Shown: piece after piece, positions 21,250-43,672 of the stretch
Layout of the letters: the number at the start of each line of letters is the position of its first letter
Numbering within the stretch: position 1 is the stretch's first letter
Origin: Rubrivivax sp.
Lineage (GTDB): Bacteria; Pseudomonadota; Gammaproteobacteria; Burkholderiales; Burkholderiaceae_C
NCBI GenBank assembly: GCA_016788525.1
Contig: JAEUPD010000175.1
Location: 1 to 46,406 of the forward strand
Length of the DNA stretch: 46,406 nt
Reading direction: 5' to 3'
The notes under the pieces: generated by a model
The model's database searches: none
Told to the model about the DNA's origin: nothing
Seen by the model: only the letters and a program-made list of their open reading frames with translations
Made by a program: the position numbers and the translations under genes

Positions 21250-21326
21250 CCGCCAGTGACCGCCGGGGCGCCGCGCCCCGTGCTCGCCAGGAACTCCACT
21301 TCTTCCACGCCCTGCCGCTTGCCCCG

Positions 21327-22016: not shown

Positions 22017-22019
22017 GCG

Positions 22020-22074
22020 TGAGCGCGCCTGGCCGCACCAAAGCGCTCATGCCGCGGCGCGCCAGCGCGGAGGC
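22020..22074. repeat. 55-bp REP-like element, copy 1
   Basis: Begins TGAGCGC with the inverted arm GCGCTCA 16 nt later, then GCCGCGGCGCGCCAGCGC. It shares about 44 of 55 bases with 27498-27552. Both copies sit between a stop codon and the next same-strand gene. Confidence 0.75.
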
Positions 22075-22080
22075 CGCCCG

Positions 22081-22575: not shown

Positions 22576-22586
22576 AGCACGTCATG

Positions 22587-22630
22587 CCCGCTCGGCTGGC
22601 GGGGACCAGCGCCACAACAGGCCGAGCGGG
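22587..22630. terminator. Inverted repeat between convergent thioesterase and DegS-like genes
   Basis: Perfect 10-bp arms CCCGCTCGGC and GCCGAGCGGG separated by 24 nt, placed between the two convergent stop codons. A bidirectional terminator is likely by position, although no T-run follows. Confidence 0.5.
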
Positions 22631-22643
22631 GCCGGGCAACGAG

Positions 22644-23762: not shown

Positions 23763-24028
23763 CGGGTGACCCCCTGTTCGGCCGGCTCGGTGCGTGAAGC
23801 CGGCAGGTCGACCGGCAGGTGGTACCAGGCGCGGTGTGGCGAGATCTTCTCGCAGGTCGGGCACTGCGTGGTCTTCCACGGCCGCGTGCACCCCGGGCAG
23901 ATGCCACCGGTCCAGAACGTGTGCCACACGGTGCCGCACTCGGGTGTGCAGGCCCAGCGGTCTTCGATTCGCGGCTTGTAGCCGCAGGCCGGGCAATGAA
24001 TGTCGGGCTGGCGAAGCATGCCCGCCAT
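23759..24028 (-). CDS. Small zinc-ribbon protein
   Basis: Protein of 89 residues (86 from the ATG at 24019). It has four cysteine pairs or knuckles: HCPACGYKP, CTPECG, ICPGC and QCPTC, enough for two zinc ribbons. The C-terminal tail is basic. It overlaps the GTG start of the DegS-like gene by GTGA and follows a deaminase gene on the same strand. I do not know its function; a structural or nucleic-acid-binding role is a guess. Confidence 0.8.
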   Translation of the reverse strand: MAGMLRQPDIHCPACGYKPRIEDRWACTPECGTVWHTFWTGGICPGCTRPWKTTQCPTCEKISPHRAWYHLPVDLPASRTEPAEQGVTR

Positions 24029-24120
24029 TCTGCCGCCGGCGCCGCGGTGCCGGCAGCGCGGCGCGTGCTGCGGCGGGGCCCGGCGGCCGCCTCGCAGGCG
24101 CCGGGCACGGGCGCCGCCGA

Positions 24121-24492
24121 TCAGGGCATCGGCGTTCCCGCGTCGTGGAGCGCCCGGCCGTGGATCATGCGCGCGACGCCGGCGGCGGCCGCGGCGGCTT
24201 CGCAGGCCCGGCAGGGGCGGGAGGTCGAGTACAGCACGGCGCCGGCCAGCGAGGACCGGCCCAGCCGCTGCTGCGCATCGCGCAGGGCCACGCGCTCGGC
24301 GTGCGCATCGGGATTGTGGTCGACCACCACGCGGCTCGGGCCGACGCCGACGATCACCCCGTCGGCGCCCAGCACGGCGCCGTAGGACTGGTCGCCCCAC
24401 GACACGGCCAAGCGCCGCAGGGCCTCGGCGGCGTCGTGAAAGCGCTGCTCCGGGGCGGGCGGGGCGGTGTTCGCCGGGCGCGGCGAGGTCAC
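24121..24492 (-). CDS. Nucleoside/tRNA-type deaminase-like protein
   Basis: Protein of 123 residues from GTG 24492. The zinc deaminase motifs are present: DAHAERVALRDA (His-Ala-Glu) and STSRPCRACEAA (Pro-Cys-x2-Cys). It is shorter than TadA and less similar to it, so it belongs to the broader cytidine/guanine deaminase family, with unknown base preference. The frame is open far upstream, but that part overlaps other genes and is Arg/Pro-rich, so the GTG is my choice. It lies in a same-strand group ending in the DegS-like gene. Confidence 0.75.
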   Translation of the reverse strand: MTSPRPANTAPPAPEQRFHDAAEALRRLAVSWGDQSYGAVLGADGVIVGVGPSRVVVDHNPDAHAERVALRDAQQRLGRSSLAGAVLYSTSRPCRACEAAAAAAGVARMIHGRALHDAGTPMP

Positions 24493-24526
24493 GGGGGTGA
24501 GGGTGCCTGCGGCTGCCCAGGGTGTT

Positions 24527-24712
24527 TCACGGGCCCGGGGTGGGTGCGGGGGGGCTCGCGGCGCCGCCTTCACCAGCGGCCGCGGTGTCAGCCTGATCGG
24601 CCGGCGCATCGCTGCCGGTACGCGACTGCTTGCGCTGCGCCTTCTCCTCCTTCTTGCGCTTCTTCTCAAGTTCGCGCTGGCGCTTCTCGAACGCGTAGTT
24701 GGGCTTGGGCAC
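24527..24712 (-). CDS. Small Lys-rich conserved protein
   Basis: Protein of 61 residues starting at GTG 24712, with AGGA about 7 nt upstream. The beginning PKPNYAFEKRQRELEKKRKK is highly charged and helical and is, as I recall, widely conserved in betaproteobacteria as an unnamed small protein. The C-terminus is Ala/Pro-rich. The longer open frame upstream lacks support. Function unknown; the charge suggests nucleic-acid or ribosome contact, which is inference. Confidence 0.75.
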   Translation of the reverse strand: MPKPNYAFEKRQRELEKKRKKEEKAQRKQSRTGSDAPADQADTAAAGEGGAASPPAPTPGP

Positions 24713-24849
24713 GGCGATTCCTCGGGTGAAGCGGCAGGAGCCGTCAGCATACGCGAGTGCGGGGCGGATTCGTGCCAGCGCGCGGCCCGTCGGTCGGCCG
24801 GCGCGGTGAACAGGTCCGCATCCAGTCCGCGGCCACAATCGGCCCCACG

Positions 24850-26148
24850 ATGCCCCCTGCCCGCCGTCTTCCAAGCCGTCTTGCCGCGCTGGACCCCCGC
24901 AGCCGCCCGTGGATCTGGGCCGTGGTGGCGGTGCTGGCCGTGGCTGCCACGTTGGTCTGGAGCCGCACCCGCGCGGTCCCCGTGCAGGTGCTCACTGCCA
25001 CGGCGGCGCCCCTGGTCCAGAGCCTGGCGGTCAGCGGCCGGGTGGCCAGCGAGAGCCGGGTGTTCGTCGGCGCCACGCTCACCGGCCGGGTGGCCGAGGT
25101 CACGCGCCGCGAGGGGCAATCGCTCGCCGCGGGCGAGCTGCTGGTGCGGCTGGAAGACGCCGAACTCGCGGCCACTGCGCGGCAGGCGGCTGCCGCGCTG
25201 ACTGTCGCCGAGGCCCGGCTGGCCGGCCAGCGCAGACTGGTCGCCCCGGTGGCCACGCAGCAGGTGGAGCAGGCGCGCGCGAACGCCGCGGCCGCCGAGC
25301 GCGAGGCCCAGCGCAGCGAGCAGCTGCTGGCGCAAGGCTTCATCGGCCAGGCACGGCTGGACGAGGCCCGCCGTGCCGCCGAAGTGGCGCAGGCGGCGCT
25401 GCGTTCCGCCCTCGTGCAGCTAGAAGCCAATGTCAGCGGCACCGAGCTCTTGCAGGCCGAGGCCCGCGTGGCCGAGGCACGCGCTTCGCTGGAGCTGGGG
25501 CGCGCGCGGCTGGCGCAGACGCGCATCACCGCACCGGCCGATGCTGCGGTGCTGACGCGGCTGGTAGAACCCGGGCAGATCGTGCAGCCGGGCACGCGTC
25601 TGGCCGAGCTGAGCGTGCGCGGCCCCTTGCAGCTGGTCGCGCTGATCGACGAGAAGTACCTCGGCCGCCTGAGCCCCGGCCTGGCGGCACGGGTCGTGGC
25701 CGACGCATTCCCGCAGCACCCGTTCGATGCGCGCGTGGCGGGCATTGCGCCACTGGTCGACGCCCAGCGCGGCTCGGTCGAAGTGAAGTTCGCGCTGCCC
25801 GCACTGCCGCCGGCACCGGTGGCGCTGAAGAACGACATGACGGTGTCGATCGAGATCGTCACCGGCCGCCGCGAGCGGGCCATCGCGCTGCCCGGCGAGG
25901 CGGTGCGCGCCGGCCCGGCCGTGCTGGTGGTGGCCGGCGGCCGCACCGTGTTGAGGCCGGTGCGCACCGGCCTGCGCACGCTGAGCGCCGTGGAGGTGAC
26001 CGAGGGGCTTGATGCCGGCGAGCAGGTGGTGCTCGACGCGGCGATGCAGCCCGGCGCGCGGGTGCGCGCCGTGGAGCGCAGCGCAGCGGGTTTGCAGGGC
26101 GAGGGGATCGACGTCGGCGCGGCGATGCGCGGCCTGGGGCGCGACTGA
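24850..26148 (+). CDS. HlyD/MacA-type periplasmic adaptor subunit
   Basis: Membrane-fusion protein of 432 residues. An N-terminal anchor (about 22-38, [16 protein letters not shown]) leads to a lipoyl/barrel-sandwich half with [12 protein letters not shown] long Ala/Glu/Arg coiled coil (about 110-215) follows, then the second lipoyl half [20 protein letters not shown] and a beta-barrel domain. It bridges the inner-membrane ABC permease to an outer-membrane channel, which is not encoded here. It is the first gene of an adaptor-permease-ATPase set, with divergent small genes upstream. The exported substrate is unknown; the gene order resembles DevBCA. Confidence 0.9.
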
Positions 26149-28842: not shown

Positions 28843-30147
28843 TCACGCGTGGTGCCGGCTCGTGACGTACACGGTGCCGGTGAAGCTGGAGATCGGCTGC
28901 CCGTCGCCGCGCGCCACGTCGACCCGGTAGACCGCGAGCTTGCGGCTGCGCGACACCTCGCGGGCGTGCGCAGTCACCGTCTCGCCTTCGCGCGCCGCCT
29001 GCTGGTAGGTGATGTGCGCGTCGATGCCGGCGGCGACGAGGCCGTGCGAGTTGGCCGCCAGTCCGAAGGCGGTGTCGGCGAGCGCGAAGATGATGCCGCC
29101 GTGGCAGCTGCCGTTGAAGTTGAGGTGCTCGGGCCGAAGCGTGAGGCGAACCTCGGCTTCTCCCGGGCCGCCGCGCACGCAGGTGATGCCGGTGGCGCGC
29201 AGGAAGGGGTCGGCGGCGGCGAGCTGGAACACCCGCGCGGCGGCCGCGGCCGACTTGGCGTCGGCGTGCAGGCGCCGGCCGCGGCCGGCATGCCGGCCAT
29301 GCTCCAGTGCGGCCACCATCAGTTCGCCCGTGCCGACGCCGGTGCTGGCCTGCACGCCGAGCACGGGCACCTTCCAGGCATCGGCCGCAGGCTGGGCGCG
29401 CAGCTGCAGCATTTCACGCAAGTCGCGCGCTGTCGCCTCCGCGCCGGGCAGATCGGCCTTGCTCACCACCAGCAGGTCGGCGATCTCCAGGATGCCGGCC
29501 TTGCTGGCCTGCACCACGTCGCCCAGCCCCGGCGGGCAGACGACAACGCGGGTGTCGGCAACGGCCATGATCTCGACCTCGGACTGGCCGGCGCCCACCG
29601 TCTCGACGATCACCGTGTCGAAGCCCGCCGCATCGAGCACGTCGACGATCGCTCGCGTGGTCGGTGACAGGCCGCCGAGGTGCCCGCGCGAGGCCACCGA
29701 ACGGATGAAGACATGGGGGTGCGCGCCGTGCTCGCCCATGCGCACGCGGTCGCCGAGCACGGCGCCGCCGCTGAGTGGGCTGCTGGGGTCCACGGCGACA
29801 ACGCCGATGCGTTGCCCGCGGCCCAGCAGCTCACCGAGCAGGGCATGCACGAGCGTCGACTTGCCGGCCCCCGGCGCACCCGTGATGCCGATGACATGCG
29901 CGCGCCCGAGGTGAGGAACGAGCGCCGCGCGCAGCGCCGCGGCATCGGGCGCGCCCTGCTCGATGCGGCTGATAGCCCGCGCAACGGCACGGCGCTCGCC
30001 ACGCAGCAGGCCAGGGGGCAGCAGCGAGTCAGTCGGAGGTGCTGCACGCCCGGCGCGTGCCGGGCGCGCGCCGTGGTGCGCGTCGTGGTGCGCCGTGTGC
30101 GCGGTGGGCCTCGTTCGCGCCGCGCCCGCCATCGGAGGCGAGGTCAC
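28843..30147 (-). CDS. meaB: MeaB-type mutase chaperone GTPase fused to a PaaI-like thioesterase
   Basis: Single frame of 434 residues. Residues about 45-295 are a MeaB/ArgK GTPase with Walker [13 protein letters not shown] (86-97), [27 protein letters not shown] (181-192) and VSKADL. MeaB protects and reloads B12-dependent acyl-CoA mutases. Its normal C-terminal dimerisation arm is missing; instead residues about 303-434 form a hotdog thioesterase with [20 protein letters not shown]. The start is GTG 30147, overlapping the mutase stop as GTGA, so translation is coupled to the mutase. Residues 1-40 are His/Ala/Pro-rich and the true start may be later. Mutase association is inferred from operon and family. 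Confidence 0.85.
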
Positions 30148-31853
30148 ACGAACGCCTGCACGTGCCCGAAGCCGAGCTCGCGCCGCAGCGTGGCGCAGAT
30201 CTCGCCGTGCGTGCAGCCGGCCCCGGCGGCTTCGACGACGCGGCCGAAGATGTTGTCCTGCGGGTCGTTCGCCGCCCGCGCCAGCGCACCGAGCGCGCGC
30301 TGCACGTCGGAAGGCGAGCGCGTGGCCTTGAACGCGCGAAAGTCGTCGAGGTGGGCAAGCATCGTCGCGCGCTCGGGCCGCGTGTTGATCGGCCGCGCAC
30401 TGCGGTCTTCATCCACCTGGTAGGCGTTGACGCCCACCAGCGTCTGCTCGCCGCTGTCGATGCGGGCCTGGAAGCGCCGCGCCGACTCGCCGATCAAGCG
30501 CTGCACAAGCCCGGATTCGACCGCCTTGTACATGCCGCCGGCGTCCTGCACGAGGGCCATCACGCGCTCGATCTCGGCCTGCATCTGGTCGGTGAGCGCC
30601 TCGACATAGTGGCTGCCGCCCAGCGGGTCGATGACGTCGGTGAGATGTGCCTCTTCGCGCAAGATGTTCTGCGTGGCCACGGCGATGCGCGCGCCGAACT
30701 CGCTGGGGCAGCTCAGCGCCTCGTCGTAGGCGTCGGTGTGCAGCGACTGCAGGCCGCCGAAAATGCCGGCCATCGCCTGCACGGCCACCCGCGCGACGTT
30801 GTTCAGCGGCTGCTGGCGGGTCAGGTCCACGCCCGAGGTCTGACCGTGGAACTTGAAGCGCCATGACTTCGGGTCCTTGGCGCCCAGCCGCTCCTTCGTC
30901 ACCTTCGCCCAGATGCGGCGCGCGGCGCGGAACTTGGCAACCTCCTCGAAGAAGCTGATCGAGATGTCGAAGAAGAAGGTGAAGCGCGGCAGGAAGGCGT
31001 CGGGGTCCAGGCCGCGCGCGATGCAGTCTTCGGCGTTCTGGATCGCGCTGCAAAGCGTGAAGGCCATCGCCTCGGCCGGCGTGGCGCCGGCTTGCTGCAT
31101 GTGCTGGCCGACCACCGACATCGGGTTCCACTTCGGCACGAAGCGGTTGCAGAACTGAATGTGGTCGCCGAGGATGCGCCGCGCGCCGGGCAGCGCGATG
31201 CGAAAGAACATGTGGTTGGCCACGTAGTGGCTGAGGTAGTCGCTCTGGTTGCTGGTGCCGCTGACCTGGGCCCAGTCGGTGCCGCGCTTCTTGGCCGCGG
31301 CCAGCATGAAGGCCAGCAGCGTGAAGGGGCTGGGGTCGTTGAGTGCGCACGAGGTGGCGGCCAGGTCCACGCCGGCCAGCGCGCGGTCCATGTGCCCGGC
31401 GGTGTTGACCACCGTGCCGCAGGTGCCGAGCAGCTCGACATGCGACTCGTCCATGTCGACGCCGCGGAACACCGAGTTGCACGGGATCAGCGACACCGCG
31501 GTGGCACCCGCGCCCAGCACATCGAGCAGCCGCGCGTTGTATTCGGCGGGGGTGCCCAGGCCGATGAGCTGCCGCTGCGTCCAGGTGCGGCCGCGGTGCA
31601 TGGTGGCATAGATGCCGCGCGTGTACGGCGCCTGGCCGGGCAGGCCCTGGCTGCTCTCGCGTTCAGGGTGCCAGTCGGCGGCGGTGTACAGCGGCTTGAT
31701 CGGCACGCCCGAGCGGTTGAGCACCGGGCGGTCGGCGCCGATCTGCGCGGCGTAGTCTTGCTGCCAGCGCGCCAGCGCCGGGTCGGCGGCCGAGGCGGCG
31801 GAGGCGGCAGCGTCTTCCACCGACGCGAGCGGGGCATCGAAGGGCTTGTTCAT
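30144..31853 (-). CDS. B12-dependent acyl-CoA mutase, large subunit, specificity unassigned
   Basis: Protein of 569 residues: the TIM-barrel substrate subunit of a split mutase (as in isobutyryl- or 2-hydroxyisobutyryl-CoA mutases), with no B12 domain. [20 protein letters not shown] aligns with the family entry segment. The selectivity position in RQ(Y/F/I)AGF is Leu96 here (RQLIGLG). The following loop [16 protein letters not shown] is unlike the FDLPT..GYDSD of known mutases. The catalytic His of GQHMQQAG (His251) and the C-terminal [10 protein letters not shown] and [11 protein letters not shown] are conserved. GGAG precedes the ATG. It is flanked by its B12 subunit and a MeaB fusion. A radical 1,2-rearrangement is expected, but the substrate is unknown. 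Confidence 0.88.
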
Positions 31854-31917
31854 CGTGGAGGCTCCGGCAGGCGGCAGGTGATCGGCTCGGAATGTCGGTC
31901 GGGGCTCGAGCAGCCGC

Positions 31918-32346
31918 TCAGGCGGTGGCGCGTTGTGCGCGCACCTCGGCGGCCAGCGCACGCACGCCGGCGGCGATGTCGGGCAGCGCGGTGCCGGGGT
32001 GGAAGACGCGCGCCACGCCCGCGGCAAGCAGCATCTGCTCGTCCTCGTCGGGCACGATGCCGCCGACGATGACCGCCACGTCGCCGAGCCCGGCCGCGCG
32101 CAGCGCCTCCATCAGCTTGGGCACGATGAGGTGGTCGGTGGCCAGCGAGCTGATGCCGATGACGTCGACATCCTCCTCGGTGGCCAGTTTCACCACGGTG
32201 GCGATCTCCTGCCAGGGCGGCGTGTAGATGACCTCCATGCCGGCGTCGCGCAGCGCGGCAGCCACCACGCGGCTGCCACGGTCGTGGCCGTCGAAGCCGA
32301 TCTTGGTGACCAGCACCTTGGGAATCAGCATGGCGGCGTTGCTCAT
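31918..32346 (-). CDS. B12-binding small subunit of the acyl-CoA mutase
   Basis: Protein of 142 residues, the size of HcmB/IcmB-type subunits. The base-off cobalamin motif is complete: FDGHDRG (Asp19, His21, Gly24), GISSLATDH (the SxL element) and [10 protein letters not shown] (the GG element). It binds adenosylcobalamin and docks on the large subunit encoded 64 bp downstream. Its ATG overlaps the TetR stop as ATGA, so regulator and subunit are co-translated. Confidence 0.93.
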
Positions 32347-33035
32347 GGGGTGGGGGTCTCCCGGTGGGGCTTAAGCAGCGCCGTGAACTGACGGGCCAGT
32401 ACGCGCGGCGACGACGCGCCGTCGGCGCGGTACCAGTTCTGCGCCCAGTTGAGCGCGCCCAGCAGCATCAGCCGCAGCGCGCGGCGGTCGGTGCGGCGCG
32501 GCAGCGGCAGTGCTGCCACGAGTGCGGCCCACAGCGCCTCGTAGCGGTCGCGCTGCGCCACCAGGCGCCGGGCGGCACCGGGCACCTCGGCCGGGCGCAC
32601 GCGCACGACCACGCGCGCGTAGTCGTCGTCGCGCAGGATGGCTTCGAGGTGCGCCACGCAGGCGGCTTCCAGCCGATGCCACGGGTCGGCCAGCGGCTGC
32701 ACGGCAGCCTCGACCGCGGTGCAGATCTGCTCGACGCCGCGCAGATAGACGGCCACCAGCAGATCGTCCTTGGTGTCGAAGTGGCAGTACAGCGAGCCGG
32801 GCAGCATGCCCGCGGCGCCGGCGATGTCGCGCACCGACGTGCCTTCGTAGCCGCGGTGGCAGAACAGCCGCGCCGCCGCGTCCAGCACCAGCGGCGCGCG
32901 GCTGTCGGCGTGGGCCTGCCGCACCGTGACTGATCCGGTGCGATCCAGGCGGTGAGGCGCCGGCCGCGCCGCGCCGGAGCCAGGGCGTGCCTGGCCGCGG
33001 GCAGCGGCGTGGGGGCGGGCAATGGCGCGTGGCAT
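32343..33035 (-). CDS. TetR-family regulator of the mutase operon
   Basis: Protein of up to 230 residues. A GTG at 32924 would give 193, the usual TetR length, and drops a Pro/Ala-rich leader. The HTH reads LFCHRGYEGTSVRDIAGAAGMLPGSLYCHF in its two parts: GYEGTSVRDIAGAAG, then MLPGSLYCHFDTKDDLL. The C-terminal ligand domain is helical. It is the first gene of the operon, overlapping the B12 subunit by ATGA, and its upstream DNA carries CAAAC-N4-GTTTG, the PsrA-type operator. An acyl-CoA or fatty-acid ligand is inferred from operon content and site, not from residues. Confidence 0.85.
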   Translation of the reverse strand: MPRAIARPHAAARGQARPGSGAARPAPHRLDRTGSVTVRQAHADSRAPLVLDAAARLFCHRGYEGTSVRDIAGAAGMLPGSLYCHFDTKDDLLVAVYLRGVEQICTAVEAAVQPLADPWHRLEAACVAHLEAILRDDDYARVVVRVRPAEVPGAARRLVAQRDRYEALWAALVAALPLPRRTDRRALRLMLLGALNWAQNWYRADGASSPRVLARQFTALLKPHRETPTP

Positions 33036-33087: not shown

Positions 33088-33112
33088 ATATACCAAACAA
33101 CCGTTTGTTAAA
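33088..33112. promoter_or_regulatory. PsrA-like TetR operator over an extended -10 promoter
   Basis: CAAAC-AACC-GTTTG lies at 33094-33107, a perfect 5-bp dyad in an AT-rich island. The minus strand then reads TGG-TATATT (33096-33088), a good extended -10 element for the TetR operon. The site also precedes the divergent ggt gene. I recall G/CAAAC-N2-4-GTTTG/C as the PsrA consensus. Confidence 0.6.
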
Positions 33113-33299: not shown

Positions 33300-35171
33300 A
33301 TGAACGTTCCCCCGGCCCGCAAATTCGTCCGTCCGCCGCTTCGCCTGGCCACCCTGGCGGCCTGCGCGGGCCTGGCCTGCGCGCAGGCGCTGGCCACCGG
33401 CGGCCCCGTCGTCGAAGGCACCGCCTACCGGGGTGGCGTCGTGTCGGTGGCCAACCCCCACGGTGCCGAGGCGGGTGCGCGCATCCTGGAGCAGGGCGGC
33501 AACGCCATCGACGCGGCCGTGGCCATCGCCTACGCGCTGAACGTGGTGGAGCCGCAGTCGGCGGGCGTCGGCGGCGGCGGCTTCATGATGTTCCACTTGG
33601 CACAGTGGGGCCTGACCTTCACGCTGGACACGCGCGAGAAGGCGCCTGCGGGCGCCGCGCGCGACATGTTCGTGGGCGTGCCCAGCGCTTCGCTGCAGGG
33701 TGTGGCCGTCGGTGTGCCGGGCATGGTGCGCGGCACGGCGATGGCCGTGCAGTTGCTGGGCCGCAAGTCGCTGGCGCAGGTGATGGCCCCGGCCATCGAG
33801 CTGGCCGACCAGGGCTTTGCGGCGACGCCGCGGTTCGTCTCGAGCCCCGGGTGCACCAACCCGGCCAGCCGTGCGCTGAATTCGCCCGAGTCGGCGGCCT
33901 ACTTCTGCCCCGGTGGTGCAGCCATTGCGGCGGGCACCGTGGTCACCAACAAGCCGCTGGCCGAGACTTTCCGCCTGATCGCCAGGCATGGCCCGGACTG
34001 CTTCTACAAGCACCTGCCGGACAAGGGCTGCGACATTGCGCTGGGCATCGTCGAGGGCCAGAAGTTCGCCCGCAGCCAGGCCGGCAGCAAGGGCGGCAGC
34101 ATGACGCTGGCCGACCTCGAGGCCTACCAGCCCGCCTTCCGCCTGCCCATCGAAGGCAGCTACCGCGGCTACAAGATCAAGGCCATGGGGCCGCCTTCCT
34201 CCGGGGCGCTGACGGTGCTGCAGATCCTGAAGATGCTGGAGCGCTTCCCGCTGGGCGACACCCACGCCGGCTTCGGCTACGGTTCGGTCAAGACGCTCAA
34301 CGTGATGGCCGACGCAATGCGCCTGGCGTTCGCCGACCGCGCCGACTGGATGGCCGATGCCGATTTCGTGCCGGTGCCCGCCAAGGGCCTGCTCGACCCC
34401 ACTTACCTGGCTGTGCGGGGCGGGGCCATCGTGCCCGGCGTGATGCTGGCCCCGAACCCGCTGCCCGGTGATCCGCGGCCCTACCAGACCGCCGGGCTCG
34501 AGCCGCGGCAGGCCGCGCTCAGGGGCGCGCCGACCACGGGCCCGGAGAACGGCACGACGCACTTCTCGGTGGTGGACCGCTGGGGCAACTTCGTCTCCTA
34601 CACCAACACCATCGAGAGCGGCTACGGCATCGGCGTGTTCGCCGGCTACAAGCGCGCCGACGGCACGTTTCACAACCACGGGTTCCTGCTCAACAACGAG
34701 CTGACCGACTTCAACACGGCGCCCAGCACAAACCGCGTCACCGCCGAGGTTGGCTACAACGACGTGCAGCCGGGCAAGCGCCCGCGCAGCAGCATGAGCC
34801 CGACGATGCTGTTCACCCCCGACGGCAAGCCGGTGCTGGCCTACGGTTCGCCGGGTGGTGCGACCATCATCAACTCGGTGGTCAACATCACCATCAATCT
34901 GGTCGACCACGGCATGCAGCTGCAGCCGGCCATCGACGCGGCGCGCATCTCGGTGGCCAGCAGCGCGCCATCGATCACGCTGGAGACCGCACGCCTGCCG
35001 GCCGGCACCGGGCCGGCCACCGAGGCCGCACTGCGGGCGCTGGGCTACACGGTGGGCACCGGGGATGTCGGCTCGGTGCAGATCGTGGCCGTCGACCCGC
35101 GCGACGGCAAGCAGTACGGGGCGGCAGACAACCGGCGGGAGGGCACGGTGATCGGGCTGCCGCGGCACTGA
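33300..35171 (+). CDS. ggt: Gamma-glutamyltranspeptidase
   Basis: Periplasmic Ntn-hydrolase of 623 residues that cleaves the gamma-glutamyl bond of glutathione. A signal peptide (about 1-33, ending ALA) is followed by AVASP-like entry strands. The large subunit contains NVVEPQSAGVGGGGFMMF. Autocleavage is expected before Thr419 in GTTHFSVVDRWGN, and the small subunit holds PRSSMSPTMLF and YGSPGGATII. ATG 33300 has AGGAAAGG upstream. It is divergent from the mutase operon and shares the operator region; a metabolic link to that operon is not obvious. Confidence 0.95.
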   Translation: MNVPPARKFVRPPLRLATLAACAGLACAQALATGGPVVEGTAYRGGVVSVANPHGAEAGARILEQGGNAIDAAVAIAYALNVVEPQSAGVGGGGFMMFHLAQWGLTFTLDTREKAPAGAARDMFVGVPSASLQGVAVGVPGMVRGTAMAVQLLGRKSLAQVMAPAIELADQGFAATPRFVSSPGCTNPASRALNSPESAAYFCPGGAAIAAGTVVTNKPLAETFRLIARHGPDCFYKHLPDKGCDIALGIVEGQKFARSQAGSKGGSMTLADLEAYQPAFRLPIEGSYRGYKIKAMGPPSSGALTVLQILKMLERFPLGDTHAGFGYGSVKTLNVMADAMRLAFADRADWMADADFVPVPAKGLLDPTYLAVRGGAIVPGVMLAPNPLPGDPRPYQTAGLEPRQAALRGAPTTGPENGTTHFSVVDRWGNFVSYTNTIESGYGIGVFAGYKRADGTFHNHGFLLNNELTDFNTAPSTNRVTAEVGYNDVQPGKRPRSSMSPTMLFTPDGKPVLAYGSPGGATIINSVVNITINLVDHGMQLQPAIDAARISVASSAPSITLETARLPAGTGPATEAALRALGYTVGTGDVGSVQIVAVDPRDGKQYGAADNRREGTVIGLPRH

Positions 35172-35228: not shown

Positions 35229-35720
35229 CTACGACACCACGAACGCCGCCGCCCCGGTGGCGATGAGTTCGCCTTCGTCGTTGTGCAGCGCCATCTGGGT
35301 GGAGCCGATGCGCCCGCCCAGGCGCGTGACCTGGGCGGTGGCCTCGAAGTGCTTGCCCAGCCCCTGGCGCAGGAAGTCGATGCGCAGGTCGATGGTGCCC
35401 ATGCGCGCGAAGCGGTGCAGCACCTGTACCGCGCTGTCGCCGGGGTGGCGCTCGGCAATGGCCACCATCAGCGCCAGGCCGGCCATCGCGTCGAGCACCG
35501 AGGAGATCACGCCGCCGTGCAGGCGACCATAGGCGAAGTGGCCAACGAGCTCGGGCTTCATCTCGAAGCGGCCGCGCACGTCGCCCGGTTGCACCGACAG
35601 CACCTTCAGCCCGAGCACCTTGTTGAAGCTGATGTGGTGCTCGAACATTTCGCGCACGGCGCCTTCGAGGCGCGCCTGCTCCTCGGCGCTGCGCGGGGCG
35701 GCCGGCGCCGTGGCGGTCAT
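35229..35720 (-). CDS. Hotdog thioesterase ending the carboxylase/BKACE operon
   Basis: Protein of 163 residues with the PaaI/YiiD-type hotdog core GHFAYGRLHGGVISSVLDAMAGLA cut as FAYGRLHGGVISSVLD then AMAGLALMVA. Later strands include TIDLRIDFLRQGLGKHFEA and GRIGSTQMALHND. The Asp in SVLD is the expected acid. The ATG overlaps the BKACE stop as ATGA, so it is coupled to the last steps of the operon. It may release a stalled acyl-CoA or the product of the BKACE reaction; the substrate is unknown. Confidence 0.87.
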   Translation of the reverse strand: MTATAPAAPRSAEEQARLEGAVREMFEHHISFNKVLGLKVLSVQPGDVRGRFEMKPELVGHFAYGRLHGGVISSVLDAMAGLALMVAIAERHPGDSAVQVLHRFARMGTIDLRIDFLRQGLGKHFEATAQVTRLGGRIGSTQMALHNDEGELIATGAAAFVVS

Positions 35721-36712
35721 GCCAGGGCCGGCGCAGCTGCGAGGCCCAGGCGTGCGCGGGCGTCGGCCGGGCTGGCGACCTCTCGGCCGCAATCGCGTGC
35801 CACGCGCGCCAGCGCCTCGATGAGCGCGCCGTTGCCCCGCGCACGTTCGCCGCTTGGCAGGTAGAAGGTGTCCTCGAGGCCGGTGCGCAGCATGCCGCCG
35901 AGCTCGGCCGTGCGCCGGTGCACGGGCCAGATCTCGGCGCGGCCGATGAGAGTCGTCTGCCACACCGCATCCTTCGGCGCGTAGCGCGGCAGCAGCGCGA
36001 GCAGGTCGGCGTCGGCCGGCATGCCGCTCGCCACGCCCATGACGAAGTTCACCTCGGGCACGAATGTCAGCCCCCTGGTCGCGGCTTCGCCGCGCCCGCG
36101 CCCCGAGGGGGGTGCGCCGGCTTGGGACGGCCCGGCGCCGGCGCCGCTGAACATGCCGGCCTTCAGGTACATGCCCACGCTCCTGACGATGCCGACGTCG
36201 AAGCACTCGAACTCCGGGTGCGTGCCGCACTCGGCCATCGCGTCGAGCATCTGCTGGATCTTGGCCACCGGGTTGTCGAACACCATCGGCGGCCAGGCCC
36301 AGCTGCCGTCTTCCTTGATCTTCAGGTAGTTCAGGCTGCCGGCGTTGCACGCCGCGGCCTCGGGCTTCACTCGCTGGATGCACGCGATGGGGCCCGACAC
36401 ATCCTTGCCCACCACACCCGTGGTCAGGTTGATGACGACGCCCGGGCAGGCAGCGCGAATCGCATTCACCACCGCTTCTGCGACATCGGGGTCCCAGCTC
36501 GGCATGTGGCCCATGCCCGGCTCCTGGCTCCGCAGGTGCACGTGCATGATGCTGGCGCCGGCGTTGAAGGCGTCGCGCGCCTCGGCGGCCATCTGCGCGG
36601 GCGTCACCGGTACCGGGTGCTGCCTCGGGTCGGTGAGCACGCCGGTCAGCGCGCAGGTGAGGATGGCCTTGTCCGGGTTGACCGCGGCCGCGCGGTCGCT
36701 CGCATTCATCAT
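35717..36712 (-). CDS. BKACE (beta-keto acid cleavage enzyme, DUF849) with an internal insert
   Basis: Protein of 331 residues, (beta/alpha)8 barrel, zinc dependent. It opens with AILTCALTGVLTDP and has HVHLRSQEPG (the His pair at about 57 and 59), INLTTGV and EVNFVMGVASGM. Family members condense a beta-keto acid with acetyl-CoA to give acetoacetate and a new acyl-CoA. Residues about 191-217 are a Gly/Pro/Arg-rich insert encoded by a GC-palindrome repeat, between KAGMFSG and PEVNFVMG where homologues run on directly. The start overlaps the carboxylase alpha stop; the stop overlaps the thioesterase start. The keto-acid substrate is unknown, and the insert could affect activity. Confidence 0.88.
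   Translation of the reverse strand: MMNASDRAAAVNPDKAILTCALTGVLTDPRQHPVPVTPAQMAAEARDAFNAGASIMHVHLRSQEPGMGHMPSWDPDVAEAVVNAIRAACPGVVINLTTGVVGKDVSGPIACIQRVKPEAAACNAGSLNYLKIKEDGSWAWPPMVFDNPVAKIQQMLDAMAECGTHPEFECFDVGIVRSVGMYLKAGMFSGAGAGPSQAGAPPSGRGRGEAATRGLTFVPEVNFVMGVASGMPADADLLALLPRYAPKDAVWQTTLIGRAEIWPVHRRTAELGGMLRTGLEDTFYLPSGERARGNGALIEALARVARDCGREVASPADARARLGLAAAPALA
36062..36142. repeat. GC-palindromic repeat inserted in frame in the BKACE gene
   Basis: About 81 bp around the dyad CCCCGAGGGG (36101-36110), flanked by GCGGCTTCGCCGC and GGCGCCGGCGCC. Its sequence class matches the element at 44.19 kb. The length keeps the BKACE frame open and adds about 27 residues. Confidence 0.6.
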
Positions 36713-38640
36713 TCGGCGATCTCCAGTTCCACGAGCACCGTGCCCGCGGCCACGCTGGCCTTGGGTGCGGCGTGCACGGCCTTCACGGTGCCGGCCGCGG
36801 CGGCGTGAAGCCACATCTCCATCTTCATGGCCTCCACGCAGACCATGGCCTGTCCGGCCCGCACCGCCTGGCCGACGGCAACGTTGACCTGCGCCACCAC
36901 GCCGGCCACCGGGGCGCGCGCCCGCCTCGGGTCGAGCGCCGCGTCGGCAGCAGGGTAGGGTGAGGCTTCGCGGAAGCGGAACACCGCGCCGTCGATCGCG
37001 AGCTGCACGCCGCCATCGCCGCCCAGGTGCGCGTGCAGGCGCCGGCGCACGCCATCGACCGTGCAGCGCAGCGACGCGCCTTCGAGCGCATCGACCTGCA
37101 CGCCTTCGGGCGGCGCGCGCAACGTGCGCTTCAGTTCATAGGCACCGTCGCCGGCGAGCAGCGTGAGGTCGAACCGCGCCACGCTGGCCGGGCGGGCGCT
37201 CGCTGCATCGACGTGGCCTGCCAGCAGCGCCGCGGCGATGCGCCAGGCGTCTTCGGGCGGCTCGGGCCGCACGAGCAGCGGCTCGCGTGCTTCCTGCCAC
37301 TCGTCCAGCAGCGTCGTGGTCATCGACGCCGACGAGAACCGCGGGTGGTTGACCAGGTCGCGCAGGAAGCGGGCATTGCTGGCCGGACCGAACAATGGCA
37401 CCTCTTCCAGCCCGCGCGTCAGGCGACGGATGGCGTCCTTCCGGTCGTGGCCGTGGGCGATGAACTTGGCCACCATCGCGTCGTAGTACGGCGTCACCTC
37501 GCCGCCAGCGGCGATGCCGTGGTCGATGCGCACCTCTCCCGCTTCGGGCGCCCAGCCGTCGATCCGCCCGGCCTGCGGTTTCCAGCCGTCGTAAGGGTCT
37601 TCGGCGTAGAGGCGCGCCTCGATCGCGTGGCCGGTGAAGCGGACGTCGGCCTGCAGGCGCGGCACCAGGTTCGTCAACGGCTCGCCGGCGGCGATGCGCA
37701 ACTGCCACTCGACGAGGTCGAAGCCGGTGACGCACTCGGTGACCGGGTGCTCCACCTGCAGCCGCGTGTTCATCTCGAGGAAGTAGTGCCTCAACCCGGC
37801 ATCGACGATGAACTCCACCGTGCCGGCGCCGCGGTAGCCCACGGCCAGCGCGGCGGCCACGGCGTCGCGGCCCATCGCTTCGCGCATCGCGGCATTGACG
37901 ACTGGCGACGGCGCCTCCTCGATCACCTTCTGGCGCCGGCGCTGCGCGGTGCAGTCGCGCTCGCCCAGGTGCACGGCGTGGCCGTGCGCATCGGCGAAGA
38001 CCTGGATCTCGATGTGGCGCCCGCCTTCGACGAGGCGCTCCAGCATCAGCGTGCCGCTGCCGAAGGCGCCTTGCGCTTCGCGGCGTGCGCCCGCCAGGGC
38101 CTCGGGCAGGGCGGCCAGATCACGCACGAGGCGCATGCCGCGCCCGCCGCCACCGGCCACCGCCTTCACCAGCAGCGGCGCGCCCAGGCGCCGCGCTTCG
38201 GCGGCGAGGTGTTCGTCGCTCTGATCGTCGCCGAGGTAGCCCGGTGCGCAGGGCACGCCGGCGTCGCGCATGCGGCGTTTGGCCGCGGCCTTGTCGCCCA
38301 TGGCCGCGATGGCCTCGGGCGGCGGGCCGATGAAGACGAGCCCAGCCTCCGCACAGGCGCGCGCGAAGTCGGCGCGCTCGCTCAAGAAACCATAGCCCGG
38401 GTGCACGGCATCGGCACCGGTGCGGCGCGCGGCGTCGAGCAGGGCGGCGATGTTCAGGTACGACTCGGCCGCCGGTGGCGCGCCGATGCGCACCGCCTCG
38501 TCGGCCATGGCGACATGCGGCGCGCTCGCATCGGCATCGCTGCACACGGCCACGGTCCGGTAGCCGAGGCGATGCGCGGTGCGCAGCACGCGGCAGGCGA
38601 TCTCGCCGCGATTGGCGACGAGGACCTTGCGAAACGTCAT
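36709..38640 (-). CDS. Acyl-CoA carboxylase alpha subunit (biotin carboxylase + biotin carrier)
   Basis: Protein of 643 residues. The ATP-grasp biotin carboxylase domain starts FRKVLVANRGEIACRVLRTA and contains KAVAGGGGRGMRLV and HIEIQVFAD. A linker/BT domain follows, and the C-terminal biotinyl domain has EAMKMEM with Lys606 for biotin. This matches the alpha chains of methylcrotonyl- and geranyl-CoA carboxylases (LiuD, AtuF). ATGA overlaps join it to the hydratase upstream and BKACE downstream. It pairs with the beta subunit at 40683-42293. Substrate class (branched 3-methyl-enoyl-CoA) is inferred from operon order. Confidence 0.93.
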   Translation of the reverse strand: MTFRKVLVANRGEIACRVLRTAHRLGYRTVAVCSDADASAPHVAMADEAVRIGAPPAAESYLNIAALLDAARRTGADAVHPGYGFLSERADFARACAEAGLVFIGPPPEAIAAMGDKAAAKRRMRDAGVPCAPGYLGDDQSDEHLAAEARRLGAPLLVKAVAGGGGRGMRLVRDLAALPEALAGARREAQGAFGSGTLMLERLVEGGRHIEIQVFADAHGHAVHLGERDCTAQRRRQKVIEEAPSPVVNAAMREAMGRDAVAAALAVGYRGAGTVEFIVDAGLRHYFLEMNTRLQVEHPVTECVTGFDLVEWQLRIAAGEPLTNLVPRLQADVRFTGHAIEARLYAEDPYDGWKPQAGRIDGWAPEAGEVRIDHGIAAGGEVTPYYDAMVAKFIAHGHDRKDAIRRLTRGLEEVPLFGPASNARFLRDLVNHPRFSSASMTTTLLDEWQEAREPLLVRPEPPEDAWRIAAALLAGHVDAASARPASVARFDLTLLAGDGAYELKRTLRAPPEGVQVDALEGASLRCTVDGVRRRLHAHLGGDGGVQLAIDGAVFRFREASPYPAADAALDPRRARAPVAGVVAQVNVAVGQAVRAGQAMVCVEAMKMEMWLHAAAAGTVKAVHAAPKASVAAGTVLVELEIAE

Positions 38641-39483: not shown

Positions 39484-40641
39484 TCAATGCGCGCCCTTGG
39501 GCAGCGTGCCCTCGAGCTTGCAGATGATGCCGAGCATGACCTCGTCGGCGCCGCCGCCGATGGAGGTGAGGCGGCCGTCGCGGTAGGCCTGCGAGAGCGG
39601 GTTGTCGGCGGTGAAGCCCATGCCGCCCCAGTACTGCAGGCAGCTGTCGGCCACTTCGCGCCCCAGCCGCCCGGCCTTGAGCTTGGCCATGCTGGCCAGC
39701 TTGGTGACGTCCTTGCCGCTGACGTACAGCTCCACCGCGCGGTAGGTCAGCGCACGCAGTGCTTCGACCTCCGTGCGCAGTTCCGCGAGGCGGAAGTGCA
39801 CCACCTGGTTGTCGAGAATGCTCTTGCCAAAGGCCTTGCGCTGGCGTGTGTAGTCGACGGTAAGGTCGATCAGCCGGTCCATGCTCTTCAGCCCCGCGGC
39901 GGCGCCCCACAGCCGCTCTTCCTGGAACTGCAGCATCTGGAAGGCGAAGCCCATGCCTTCCTGGCCGATCAGGTTTCGCCGTGGCACGCGCACGTTGTCG
40001 AAGAACAGTTGCGCGGTGTCGGAGCTGTGCATGCCGATCTTGTTGATCTTCTGCTTGGTGATGCCGGGGCTGTCCATCGGCACGACGATCAGGCTCTTGT
40101 TCTTGTGCGGCGAGCCGCCTTCGCTGGTGTTGGCGAGCAGACAGCACCAGTCGGCCTTCAACCCGTTGGTGATCCACATCTTGGTGCCGTTGATGACGTA
40201 GTCGCCGCCGTCGTGCCGGGCGCTGGTCTTGACGGCGGCCACATCGCTGCCGCCGCCGGGTTCGCTCACGCCCAGGCAGGCCACGTAGTCGCCGGCGATG
40301 GTGGGCACGAGGTATTCCTTGCGCAGCTCGTCGCTGCCGAAGCGGGCCAGCGCCGGCGTGGCCATGTCGGTCTGCACGCCGATGGCCATCGGGATGCCAC
40401 CGCAGGAGCACACGCCCAGCGCCTCGGCCATGACAAGGCTGTAGCTGAAGTCGAGGCCCTGGCCGCCGTATTCCTCGGGGTACTTCAGGCCGAGCAGCCC
40501 CAGATCGCCGAGCTTCTTGAAGACCTCGTGGCTCGGGAACTGTTCGGCCTTCTCCCACTCGGGCACGAACGGATTGATTTCCTTCTGCACGAACTTGATC
40601 ACCGTGTCTTCGATCTGGCGGTGCTCGGGCGTGAACTTCAT
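39484..40641 (-). CDS. Acyl-CoA dehydrogenase, AtuD-like
   Basis: FAD enzyme of 385 residues. It has the ACAD blocks YPEEYGGQGLDFSYS, LGVSEPGGGSDVAAVKT, NGTKMWITNG and LQYWGGMGF. At the usual C-terminal base position it has GGGADEVML, with no Glu aligned to MCAD Glu376. Glu242 in QEERLWGAAAG instead matches the base of isovaleryl-CoA dehydrogenase, pointing to a branched or isoprenoid acyl-CoA. GGAG sits 7 nt before the ATG. It sits between the carboxyltransferase and hydratase genes, as citronellyl-CoA dehydrogenase AtuD does. Electron transfer would go to ETF, not encoded here. Confidence 0.92.
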   Translation of the reverse strand: MKFTPEHRQIEDTVIKFVQKEINPFVPEWEKAEQFPSHEVFKKLGDLGLLGLKYPEEYGGQGLDFSYSLVMAEALGVCSCGGIPMAIGVQTDMATPALARFGSDELRKEYLVPTIAGDYVACLGVSEPGGGSDVAAVKTSARHDGGDYVINGTKMWITNGLKADWCCLLANTSEGGSPHKNKSLIVVPMDSPGITKQKINKIGMHSSDTAQLFFDNVRVPRRNLIGQEGMGFAFQMLQFQEERLWGAAAGLKSMDRLIDLTVDYTRQRKAFGKSILDNQVVHFRLAELRTEVEALRALTYRAVELYVSGKDVTKLASMAKLKAGRLGREVADSCLQYWGGMGFTADNPLSQAYRDGRLTSIGGGADEVMLGIICKLEGTLPKGAH

Positions 40642-40682
40642 GGGGTTCTCCAGGTGCGATCTGATTCGGCGCCGCGCTGGGC

Positions 40683-42293
40683 TCAGAGCCGCGCCACGCC
40701 AAACGTGTTGGGGCGCAGCGTGCGCGCGGCGGCCTCCGCGACAATCGTCAGGCACAGTCCGAGCACGCGCCGGGTGTCACGCGGGTCGATGATGCCGTCG
40801 TCCCACAGGCGCGCCGTGCCAAAGAGCGCCGTGCTCTCGGCATCGAGGCGGCGGCGCAGCGCATCGCTCATGGCGGCCAGTGCTTCGTCGTTGGGCTGCT
40901 GGCCGATCTTCATGAGCTTGTTGCGGTTGACGATGTCCATCACCTTGGCCGCCTGCGCGCCGCCCATGACCGCGGTGCGCGCGCTCGGCCAGGCGAAGAT
41001 GAAGCGCGGGTCGAAGCCGCGCCCGCACATGCCGTAGTTGCCGGCGCCGAAGCTGCCGCCCAGCACGACGGTGAACTTGGGCACGCGGGCGTTGGCCACC
41101 GCCTGGATCATCTTGCTGCCGTGCTTGATGGCGCCGGCGTGCTCGGCCGCGCGGCCGACCATGTAGCCCGTGGTGTTCTGCAAGAAGACGAGCGGCGTGC
41201 CGCTCTGGTCGCACAACTGGATGAACTGGCCGGCCTTGGTGCTGCCGGCGGGCTGGATGGGGCCGTTGTTGCCGATGAGCCCGACCGCGTGGCCGTGGAT
41301 GCGGGCGTGGCCGCACAGCGTGTCGGTGGCGTAGGCGGCCTTGAACTCCAGGAAGTCGCTGGCGTCGACGAGGCGCGCAATGACTTCGCGCACGTCGTAG
41401 GGCTCGCGCTCGTCAGAGGGCACCACGCCCATCAGCTCCTCGGCCGCGTACAGCGGCTCGGGGGCGGTGGGTCGGGGCATCACGGTGTCCCATGGCAGCT
41501 TGTCGATCAGCTCACGCGCCACGGCGATGGCGTGGGCGTCGTTCTCGGTGAGGTACTCGCCCAGGCCCGTGATCGAGGCGTGCGTCTCGGCGCCGCCGAG
41601 TTCCTCTTCGCTGGCGTCTTCGCCGATCGCGGCCTTCACCAGCGGCGGGCCGGCCAGGTAGATGCTGCTGCGGTTCTTCACCAGCACCACGTAGTCCGAA
41701 AGGCCCGGCAGGTACGCGCCGCCGGCGGTGGAAGCGCCATGCACCACCGCAACCTGCGGAATGCCGGCGGCCGACAGGCGCGCCTGGTTGGCGAACGTGC
41801 GCCCGCCGTCGACGAAGATCTCGGCCTGGTACAGCAGGTTGGCGCCGCCGGACTCGACCAGCGCCACCAGAGGCAGCTTGTTCTCGCGCGCCAGCTCCTG
41901 CGCGCGCAGCGCCTTCCTCAGGCCCATCGGCGCCACGGTGCCGCCCTTGATGCCGCTGTCGCTGGCCGAGACGAGCACGCGCCTGCCGGCGACCACGCCG
42001 ATGCCGACGATGCTGCCGCCGCCCATCACGGCTTTCCTGCCGTCGTCGTCGTGCATGCCCAGGCCCGCGAGCGTGCTCAGTTCGAGGAACTCGCTGCCGC
42101 GGTCGATGAGGCGGGCCACGCGCTCGCGCGGCAGCAGCTGGCCGCGTTCCTCGAACCTCTTGCGCTTGCTTTCGCTTTCGGCCACCACCAGCGCCTCGAG
42201 CCGGCGAACCTCGGCCAGGCGCTCGTGCATGCGCGCGGCGTTGGCCTGGAAGGCCGCCGAGGCCGGGTCCAGCGCAGTGGCGATGCGGGTCAT
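40683..42293 (-). CDS. Acyl-CoA carboxylase beta (carboxyltransferase), AtuC-like
   Basis: Protein of 536 residues, length as in LiuB/AtuC. Two crotonase-like halves: the first with GKLLPRER-type QLLPRERVARLIDRG, LVESGGANL and STAGGAYLPGLSDY, the second with IGNNGPIQPAGSTKAGQFI, FLQNTTGYMVG and GSFGAGNYGMCGRGFDPRF. It transfers carboxybiotin CO2 to the gamma-methyl of a 3-methyl-enoyl-CoA. SASDSGIKGGTVAPMG is nearer to my recollection of AtuC-group enzymes than to methylcrotonyl-CoA carboxylase, but I cannot fix the substrate by eye. ATG 42293. Confidence 0.92.
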   Translation of the reverse strand: MTRIATALDPASAAFQANAARMHERLAEVRRLEALVVAESESKRKRFEERGQLLPRERVARLIDRGSEFLELSTLAGLGMHDDDGRKAVMGGGSIVGIGVVAGRRVLVSASDSGIKGGTVAPMGLRKALRAQELARENKLPLVALVESGGANLLYQAEIFVDGGRTFANQARLSAAGIPQVAVVHGASTAGGAYLPGLSDYVVLVKNRSSIYLAGPPLVKAAIGEDASEEELGGAETHASITGLGEYLTENDAHAIAVARELIDKLPWDTVMPRPTAPEPLYAAEELMGVVPSDEREPYDVREVIARLVDASDFLEFKAAYATDTLCGHARIHGHAVGLIGNNGPIQPAGSTKAGQFIQLCDQSGTPLVFLQNTTGYMVGRAAEHAGAIKHGSKMIQAVANARVPKFTVVLGGSFGAGNYGMCGRGFDPRFIFAWPSARTAVMGGAQAAKVMDIVNRNKLMKIGQQPNDEALAAMSDALRRRLDAESTALFGTARLWDDGIIDPRDTRRVLGLCLTIVAEAAARTLRPNTFGVARL

Positions 42294-42318
42294 GCGCAGG
42301 CGGGCGGTGGCCGAACGG

Positions 42319-43221
42319 TCACTTGAACGCCTCGGGCATGACGGCGCGGTGGAAGCCCTCGTAGGGCCGCTGGTTCTTCGCCTCCTGCAGCGGGAATACC
42401 GCGTGGCCCAGCGACGCGCCACCGTCGATCTGCACGGTGACGCCGGTGACGAACGAGGCGGCCGGCGACAACAGGAACACGATGACGGCGCTGATCTCGG
42501 CTTCCAGCGCCACGCGCTTCATCGGCACCGCGTTCTTCAGCTTGCGGATCAGCGGCTGCATCGCCGGGCCGTAGGTGTCCATGCCGCTGCTGGCCACCCA
42601 GCCAGGCGCCACGGCGTTGACGCGCACGCCGGCATGTGCCCACTCGAATGCCGCGGTCATGGTCAGGTTGCTCATGCCGGCGCGCGCCGCGCCGCTGTGC
42701 GCCATGCCCGGCATGCCGTTGCGGAAGTCGGCCGTCATGTTGACGATGGCGCCGCCGTGCTGTTCCATGCACTGGTTGTACAGCTCGCGCATCATCAGGA
42801 AGCCACCGGTGAGGTTGTTGGCCACCACGGCGTCGAACCCCTTCTTGCCGATGGCCATCAGCGGAGAGGGGAACTGGCCGCCGGCGTTGTTCACCAGGCC
42901 GCCGACCGGGCCGTATTGCGCGACCACCTGCCTGACCGCGCCCTGGACCATGGCCTCGTCGCGGATGTCGAAGGCGATGACGTGGCAGTGGCCGCCGTCC
43001 TCGGTGATCTCGGCGCGCACACGCTCGAGCTTGTCGAGCTTGCGGCCGCTGATGACCACCGTGGCCCCCAGCGAGGCCAGTTCGTGCGCCACGCAGCGGC
43101 CGATGCCGCTGCCGCCACCGGTGACCCAGACCCGCTGGCCGGCGAACAGGCCCGGGCGGAAGGCGCTGCGGTAGCCGGCGGCGGGGGCGCGCGGGTCGGG
43201 CGTGGGCGTGGGCGCGTCCAT
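42319..43221 (-). CDS. SDR-family reductase, AtuB-like, lacking the catalytic Tyr
   Basis: Protein of 300 residues. The NAD(P) motif TGGGSGIG is at 34-41 and the NNAGG motif at 111-115. The usual YxxxK is replaced: the aligned segment is AHSGAARAGM (174-183), Ser for Tyr and Arg for Lys, as in the dienoyl-CoA reductase/PECR branch. The end is unusual for an SDR: QRPYEGFHRAVMPEAFK. It is the first gene of the carboxylase operon, transcribed from the palindrome-bearing intergenic region, and corresponds to AtuB by order. A dehydrogenase or reductase step on a CoA ester is expected; the reaction is not known. Confidence 0.9.
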   Translation of the reverse strand: MDAPTPTPDPRAPAAGYRSAFRPGLFAGQRVWVTGGGSGIGRCVAHELASLGATVVISGRKLDKLERVRAEITEDGGHCHVIAFDIRDEAMVQGAVRQVVAQYGPVGGLVNNAGGQFPSPLMAIGKKGFDAVVANNLTGGFLMMRELYNQCMEQHGGAIVNMTADFRNGMPGMAHSGAARAGMSNLTMTAAFEWAHAGVRVNAVAPGWVASSGMDTYGPAMQPLIRKLKNAVPMKRVALEAEISAVIVFLLSPAASFVTGVTVQIDGGASLGHAVFPLQEAKNQRPYEGFHRAVMPEAFK

Positions 43222-43657: not shown

Positions 43658-43672
43658 GCGCCCCCAGGAACC

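Follow-up and report, generated by a model that had tools for sequence, protein, structure and literature searches.

We analysed a stretch of 46,406 nucleotides from Rubrivivax sp. (assembly GCA_016788525.1, contig JAEUPD010000175.1), which we refer to in its full length as the window, and in particular a B12-dependent mutase operon on its minus strand that runs in the order TetR regulator, small mutase subunit, large mutase subunit and MeaB–PaaI fusion. Judging from its sequence, the operon probably encodes a split, adenosylcobalamin (AdoCbl)-dependent mutase acting on an acyl-coenzyme A (acyl-CoA) and belonging to the pivalyl-CoA mutase (PCM) family, and the best reading of its predicted substrate is pivalyl-CoA or a larger 2,2-dimethylacyl-CoA. 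The operon comprises the following features:

33094..33107, no strand assigned: inverted repeat CAAAC-N4-GTTTG, probable TetR operator, roughly 60 bases ahead of the TetR gene as called
32343..33035, minus strand: TetR-family regulator, the operon's first gene (Pfam TetR_N, TetR_C_24)
31918..32346, minus strand: cobalamin-binding small subunit of the mutase, 142 amino acids (Pfam B12-binding), DxHxxG motif intact
30144..31853, minus strand: large subunit of the mutase, ATG at 31853 and stop at 30144, 569 amino acids beginning MNKPFDAPL (Pfam MM_CoA_mutase)
28843..30147, minus strand: MeaB-type GTPase chaperone and PaaI-type hotdog thioesterase, a natural fusion in one frame of 434 amino acids (Pfam MeaB, 4HBT)

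As called, the TetR and small-subunit genes overlap by 4 bases, as do the large-subunit and MeaB genes, while the two mutase genes are spaced by 64 bases. Both mutase genes and the TetR gene show a coding-type distribution of guanine-plus-cytosine (GC) content by codon position. The large subunit matches MM_CoA_mutase at 547 bits (E 4.8e-164), and the small subunit matches B12-binding at 88 bits and TIGR00640 at 138 bits. Numbered from the MNKP start, the large subunit holds Leu96 within RQLIGLG and His251 within VGQHMQQAG, and the small subunit retains DGHDRG. An earlier reading of this DNA, made without database searches and called here the sequence-only reading, had placed a split B12 acyl-CoA mutase with Leu96, a substrate segment at residues 121–136 and His251 at 30144–32346, and had described the B12 motif as intact; the Pfam matches and the coding-type GC are in accordance with this, and every one of these elements is present.

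A search of a plasmid collection returned six records with proteins 59.6–67.0% identical to the large subunit, the next match among the best 40 of 426 records being at 39.6%. One of the six is pXAUT01 of Xanthobacter autotrophicus Py2, on which Xaut_5045–5041 encode a TetR regulator, a B12 protein, a large subunit, a LAO/AO ATPase (MeaB) and PaaD, collinear with the window operon at identities of 45% (TetR), 75% (small subunit), 66% (large subunit), 64% (MeaB) and 36% (PaaI). Xaut_5043/5044 is what we take to be native PCM; Kitanishi, Cracan and Banerjee reportedly described the native PCM of this strain in the Journal of Biological Chemistry in 2015. The two systems share the order TetR–small–large–MeaB–PaaI, a MeaB of their own, Leu96, Asn213 and Gln250, and an insertion at Asn202. 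They differ in that MeaB and thioesterase are separate in Xanthobacter but fused in the window, and in that ligase and ABC transporter genes follow the Xanthobacter operon whereas the window showed none beyond its fusion gene. A link to the benzylmalonyl/phenylsuccinyl mutase IaaGH was considered and dropped: the available part of PMC8360864 contains neither 'meab' nor 'thioesterase', and Xaut_5043 was matched directly.

The relationship was placed in a quick maximum-likelihood tree of 37 hand-chosen rows, made without bootstrap, in which branch support was measured by the Shimodaira–Hasegawa-like approximate likelihood ratio test (SH-aLRT). Here 24 rows, including the window and Xaut_5043 and excluding methylmalonyl-CoA mutase (MCM), 2-hydroxyisobutyryl-CoA mutase (HCM) and the IcmF-like proteins, form one side of a branch with a support of 100, and this clade sits on a long stem. 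Xaut_5043 falls in a subgroup of 8 rows that adjoins a Burkholderiales subgroup of 12 rows holding the window protein, whose nearest rows are proteins of Rubrivivax metagenome-assembled genomes (MAGs). Three rows (L114, L111 and L113) have long branches and an uncertain placement, and the tree program warned of long branches meeting for HCM with the IcmF-like rows and for L114 with L111. A gap of the same kind is seen across 61 genomes (the window's own, 36 of the same genus and 24 of the same order), where members of the clade other than the window's own are 66–86% identical to the large subunit and other mutases reach at most 44%.

The active-site columns, numbered by the window large subunit, separate the same groups. 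In MCM, Tyr89 and Arg207 hold the carboxylate of the substrate; these roles and the numbering, including that of Tyr243, are textbook knowledge. The window and Xaut_5043 both carry Leu at column 96 (Tyr in MCM, Ile in HCM, Phe in IcmF-like rows, as the sequence-only reading had correctly stated), Asn at column 213, aligned with Arg207 of MCM (Gln in HCM and IcmF-like rows), and Gln at column 250, aligned with Tyr243 of MCM (Tyr in MCM, HCM and IcmF-like rows). Asn202 is a one-residue insertion that Xaut_5043 shares and that is absent from all 10 other-family rows shown. The Asn202 insertion, Asn213 and Gln250 are clade-wide departures from MCM that the sequence-only reading had overlooked. Leu96, Asn202, Asn213 and Gln250, together with Pro124, Cys125, Ser127, Arg130, Gly131 and Asp133 of the substrate segment, are conserved in 80/80 relatives; a search with patterns taken from the window protein itself had yielded 164, of which these are the 80 best. 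Since they are kept in every fetched relative, Leu96 and the segment residues are not due to chance, though many of the 80 are close kin, so that neither this invariance nor the operator counts given below are independent observations. The remainder of segment 121–136 varies inside the clade: column 123 is Ile in 64/80 relatives and Leu in 16/80, and column 132 is Val in the window versus Tyr in 63/80.

We considered whether the enzyme is instead a methylmalonyl-, ethylmalonyl-, isobutyryl- or 2-hydroxyisobutyryl-CoA mutase whose residues have drifted, which we regard as highly improbable. In its favour, the HCM structure 4R3U is the best solved relative both by sequence (352.7 bits) and by fold (36% identity in the fold alignment), and HCM, too, is built from two separate subunits and has a MeaB gene as its neighbour. 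The separate clade on its long stem argues against such drift, as do columns 96, 213 and 250, which match the rows of none of those families. Although the fold and the catalytic His are shared with MCM, the columns of Tyr89, Arg207 and Tyr243 all differ, the first two being Leu and Asn in the window. HCM has Ile, Asp, Gln and Tyr at columns 96, 123, 213 and 250; at the first two of these, which govern selectivity, the window has Leu96 and Ile123. Neither the Phe at 96 nor the Gln at 213 of isobutyryl-CoA mutase and IcmF is present, with Leu and Asn in their place; IcmF (4XC6) is moreover a single chain with a G domain, and the NCBIfam IcmF model reaches 185 bits against a cut-off of 1500. The lone row resembling ethylmalonyl-CoA mutase (L114), so labelled by its motif and lying on a very long branch, differs from the window at these residues. 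Furthermore, X. autotrophicus carries on the same plasmid a separate HCM-type split mutase, Xaut_5021, 83% identical to HCM and with the gene order small subunit–ligase–MeaB–large subunit, and the two other mutase matches in the window's own genome look IcmF-like.

These comparisons qualify what the sequence-only reading had proposed, namely an active mutase for another, bulky branched acyl-CoA, with a selectivity residue and loop unlike those of characterised mutases. An intact-looking enzyme outside the MCM, HCM and IcmF-like groups, probably acting on a bulky branched substrate, is retained. Its separation from characterised mutases is not: it shares a clade with a support of 100, columns 96, 213 and 250, and its operon with Xaut_5043, the presumed native PCM, and Xaut_5043 has RQLIGLG and SLLPCCSGFRGIDCDE at the very places that had been called distinctive. 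Grouping of this sort, with active-site residues that agree, is what the sequence-only reading had itself named as refuting its claim.

Partner genes at related loci speak to the product. Two loci, one on a plasmid of Pseudosulfitobacter (L120) and one from a betaproteobacterium (L050), have after the mutase and MeaB genes a carboxyltransferase, a hydratase, a biotin carboxylase and an acyl-CoA dehydrogenase; the two partner sets are 50–69% identical, the carboxyltransferases 69%. The L120 carboxyltransferase scores 589 bits against methylcrotonyl-CoA carboxylase versus 428 bits against geranyl-CoA carboxylase, and this methylcrotonyl type, which L050 resembles, fits isovaleryl-CoA as the product. 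The window's own genome encodes a separate methylcrotonyl-type carboxyltransferase (883 versus 490 bits) and three HMGL-like matches, one of which shares a contig with it. On the side of uptake, an acyl-CoA ligase and a branched-chain-type ABC transporter follow the mutase operon in three of five annotated plasmid loci and not in the other two. According to PMC10481361 and PMC9974510, IcmF also converts pivalyl-CoA and isovaleryl-CoA, and by its title the entry 5CJW is IcmF solved with pivalyl-CoA. A 2010 review (PMC2847961) mentions earlier proposals that rearrangements of this kind take part in the anaerobic breakdown of pivalic acid.

A mutase for an unrelated acyl-CoA, such as an arylalkyl or alkylsuccinyl one, with the PaaI-type partner reflecting an aromatic acid, appears very unlikely. 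The partner thioesterase is indeed PaaI-like, and among the ligases that come after Xaut_5041 one bears a phenylacetate-CoA ligase-like annotation, but the same annotation occurs in the HCM-type operon of pXAUT01, whose substrate is non-aromatic. In addition, Asn occupies the Arg207 column of the dicarboxylate enzymes, and the partners of the mutase include methylcrotonyl- and geranyl-type carboxylases.

Several other genes lie near mutases of the related loci. A plasmid of Diaphorobacter sp. HDW4B (L111) encodes, besides the PCM-type large subunit and some 11 kb away from it, another split mutase (4626–6676). Its residue at the column of MCM Tyr243 is Ala (GAH), and its neighbours are genes for an enoyl-CoA hydratase, a CoA transferase and a GTP-binding protein. 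On a plasmid of Sphingobium sp. YC-XJ3 (L085), the set TetR–small–large–MeaB with thiolase and AMP-ligase occurs twice at 7744–24959, the two sets being separated by transposases of IS6100 and ISSp1. At L066, the alpha subunit of a Rieske ring-hydroxylating oxygenase (6219–7394), a thiolase and others lie near the mutase; five other loci have homologues that cluster with this Rieske subunit, the family assignment coming from a scan of the L066 protein.

Within the window, a second operon lies at 35–43 kb on the minus strand:

42319..43221, minus strand: short-chain dehydrogenase (SDR) of the same operon
40683..42422, minus strand: carboxyltransferase of geranyl-CoA-carboxylase type (5ikl_B 714 bits versus 3u9r_B 527 bits)
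39484..40755, minus strand: acyl-CoA dehydrogenase, 37.5% identical to that of the methylcrotonyl-type operon of the same genome
38637..39476, minus strand: enoyl-CoA hydratase, with the gamma-carboxygeranoyl-CoA hydratase model second best and below its cut-off
36709..38634, minus strand: biotin carboxylase with biotin-carrier domain (Pfam Biotin_carb_N, CPSase_L_D2, Biotin_carb_C, Biotin_lipoyl), start approximate
35717..36700, minus strand: beta-keto acid cleavage enzyme (BKACE), best NCBIfam model KCE at 166 bits against a cut-off of 382, with solved KCE relatives, start approximate
35229..35693, minus strand: hotdog thioesterase (Pfam 4HBT), start approximate

The sequence-only reading had named this carboxylase/BKACE operon correctly and had seen in it support for a branched or isoprenoid acid pathway. 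The isoprenoid-type look is upheld by the carboxyltransferase scores; the support for the mutase pathway is circumstantial in the window, because a divergent gene intervenes and the mutase operator is lacking there: one exact operator site occurs in the window and in the searched part of the own genome, and none at the 35–43 kb operon. The divergent gene (about 33315–35171, plus strand) is gamma-glutamyltransferase-like by eye. Among 85 mutase loci surveyed for neighbours, with rough gene calls, several approximate starts and many short flanks, a homologue of it was found in none at 40% identity or above and in one at 30%. A reading of the carboxylase operon as leucine-type was ruled out by its geranyl-type carboxyltransferase. 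Beyond it, at 43283–45400 on the plus strand, an SCP2 domain protein, a MerR regulator and a second acyl-CoA dehydrogenase diverge from the operon.

This neighbourhood suggests a variant of the same assignment, which we consider unlikely though not negligible: that in this lineage of Burkholderiales the substrate is a larger acyl-CoA with two methyl groups at C2 (2,2-dimethyl, gem-dimethyl or 'neo'), the longer 3-methylacyl-CoA passing into the adjoining geranyl-CoA-carboxylase-type pathway. In both the window and the Ramlibacter locus L005 (carboxyltransferase at 570 versus 450 bits) the adjoining operon is of geranyl type, with unlike gene orders. Orthologues of the window carboxylase operon, 76–93% identical, occur at L003 and L017; at L003 the carboxylase and BKACE genes share their strand with the mutase, and the Ramlibacter-type loci L005, L016 and L024 have a related carboxylase set on the opposite strand. 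A homologue of the neighbour thioesterase at 45% identity or more stands beside the mutase in 17/85 loci, one of the SDR at the same level in 8/85, and one of the BKACE in 1/85; the substrate segment, too, differs from that of Xaut_5043. These points are offset by the intervening divergent gene, by an operator found at the mutase operon only, and by the methylcrotonyl-type module of L120 and its similar counterpart at L050, and the loci sharing the thioesterase are near relatives and therefore not independent.

Other observations weigh against the assignment to PCM with pivalyl-CoA as substrate. That Xaut_5043/5044 is the assayed PCM is a presumption. In the substrate segment, the window has Ile123, Asn126, Val128 and Met134 where Xaut_5043 has Leu123, Cys126, Gly128 and Cys134, and since these residues differ, the acyl preference could differ as well. 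The window carboxyltransferase scores 714 bits against geranyl-CoA carboxylase versus 527 against methylcrotonyl-CoA carboxylase, in an operon of Atu type. The locus that shows the methylcrotonyl type most clearly, L120, has one of the large subunits in the clade that are furthest from the window's (59.7%), and a biotin carboxylase at 40% identity or more is within reach in only 7/85 loci, many of which have short flanks. The AlphaFold model of the large subunit is middling (predicted local distance difference test score, pLDDT, of 71, with residues 55–91 below 50); it confirms the fold, with 4R3U as top match, and is too weak for pocket analysis around residues 121–136.

The MeaB–thioesterase fusion next to the mutase is unusual. 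The protein matches MeaB at 275 bits over approximately residues 50–296 and 4HBT at 60 bits over approximately 311–428, and scores 105 bits against TIGR02286 (PaaI), below the cut-off of 118.9. MeaB and PaaI are fused in 52/85 loci and separate in 6/85. MeaB stands without PaaI in 21/85, five of these with less than 2 kb of room, three loci lack MeaB despite room for it, and the remaining 3/85 have no room.

The predicted operator is similarly tied to the mutase. In 1.10 Mb from 80 loci, CAAAC-N4-GTTTG occurs 47 times, with 46 of the 47 sites between −1500 and +200 of the large-subunit frame. At least one exact site is present in 46/80 loci; none was found in the other 34, some of which have a site with one or two mismatches and others nothing close. 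The own genome, 73% complete, has a single site in the 4.43 Mb searched, at the mutase operon, while the reversed control gave 0. Among five named plasmid loci, an exact operator precedes TetR in L086, L119 and L120, a variant, CTAAACGATCGTTTAG, is present in L084 and none was found in L085; pXAUT01 has no exact site. In one further genome of the genus (G028) the motif again lies upstream of the mutase operon, and in G006, of the genus, and G046, of the order, the single site lies on another contig.

A clade-level match is present in 7/61 genomes, namely the own genome, four others of the genus (G006, G028, G011 and G012) and two of the order (G046 and G047). Across the phylum, at E 1e-180 and with at most four candidates scored per genome, 1/299 genomes matches, and this is the own genome. 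The mutase gene has the look of an accessory one. Among its carriers with a name are Nocardioides, Prescottella, Roseovarius, Pseudomaricurvus and a Myxococcota MAG. The PCM-type solution has a patchy distribution that takes in Burkholderiales, Alphaproteobacteria, Actinomycetota and others, as well as the six plasmid records.

If the operon does encode a PCM-type mutase, a 5′-deoxyadenosyl radical would abstract hydrogen from a methyl group of the 2,2-dimethyl-branched (quaternary) acyl-CoA, the thioester carbonyl would then shift 1,2 to that methyl carbon, and the resulting tertiary radical would regain hydrogen to give a 3-methyl-branched acyl-CoA. Pivalyl-CoA would in this way become isovaleryl-CoA, and the genome encodes at another place methylcrotonyl-type enzymes that could break this product down. 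With Leu96 and Asn213 replacing the Tyr and Arg that hold the carboxylate in MCM, there would be room for the methyl group. MeaB loads and edits the cofactor. TetR may bind CAAAC-N4-GTTTG and so keep its own operon repressed as long as neither the acid nor its CoA ester is there. The fused hotdog thioesterase may free CoA from stuck acyl-CoA when the mutase is inactive, the two grounds for this role being the fusion itself and the general exclusion from beta-oxidation of any acyl-CoA whose alpha carbon is quaternary.

Acids with a quaternary carbon, for example pivalate, offer beta-oxidation no starting point and persist for that reason. The mutase belongs to a mostly ordinary class of enzyme; the fusion and the link to a geranyl-type carboxylase are less so. 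More speculatively, and in our view rather doubtful, the Burkholderiales branch could be the entry of an unrecognised 'gem-dimethyl bypass', in which 2,2-dimethylacyl-CoAs larger than pivalyl-CoA would be converted to 3-methylacyl-CoAs and passed to a geranyl-CoA-carboxylase-type pathway, with the chaperone-tethered thioesterase rescuing CoA whenever the B12 enzyme stalls. The MeaB–thioesterase fusion suggests a link between the quality control of the B12 cofactor and the release of CoA.

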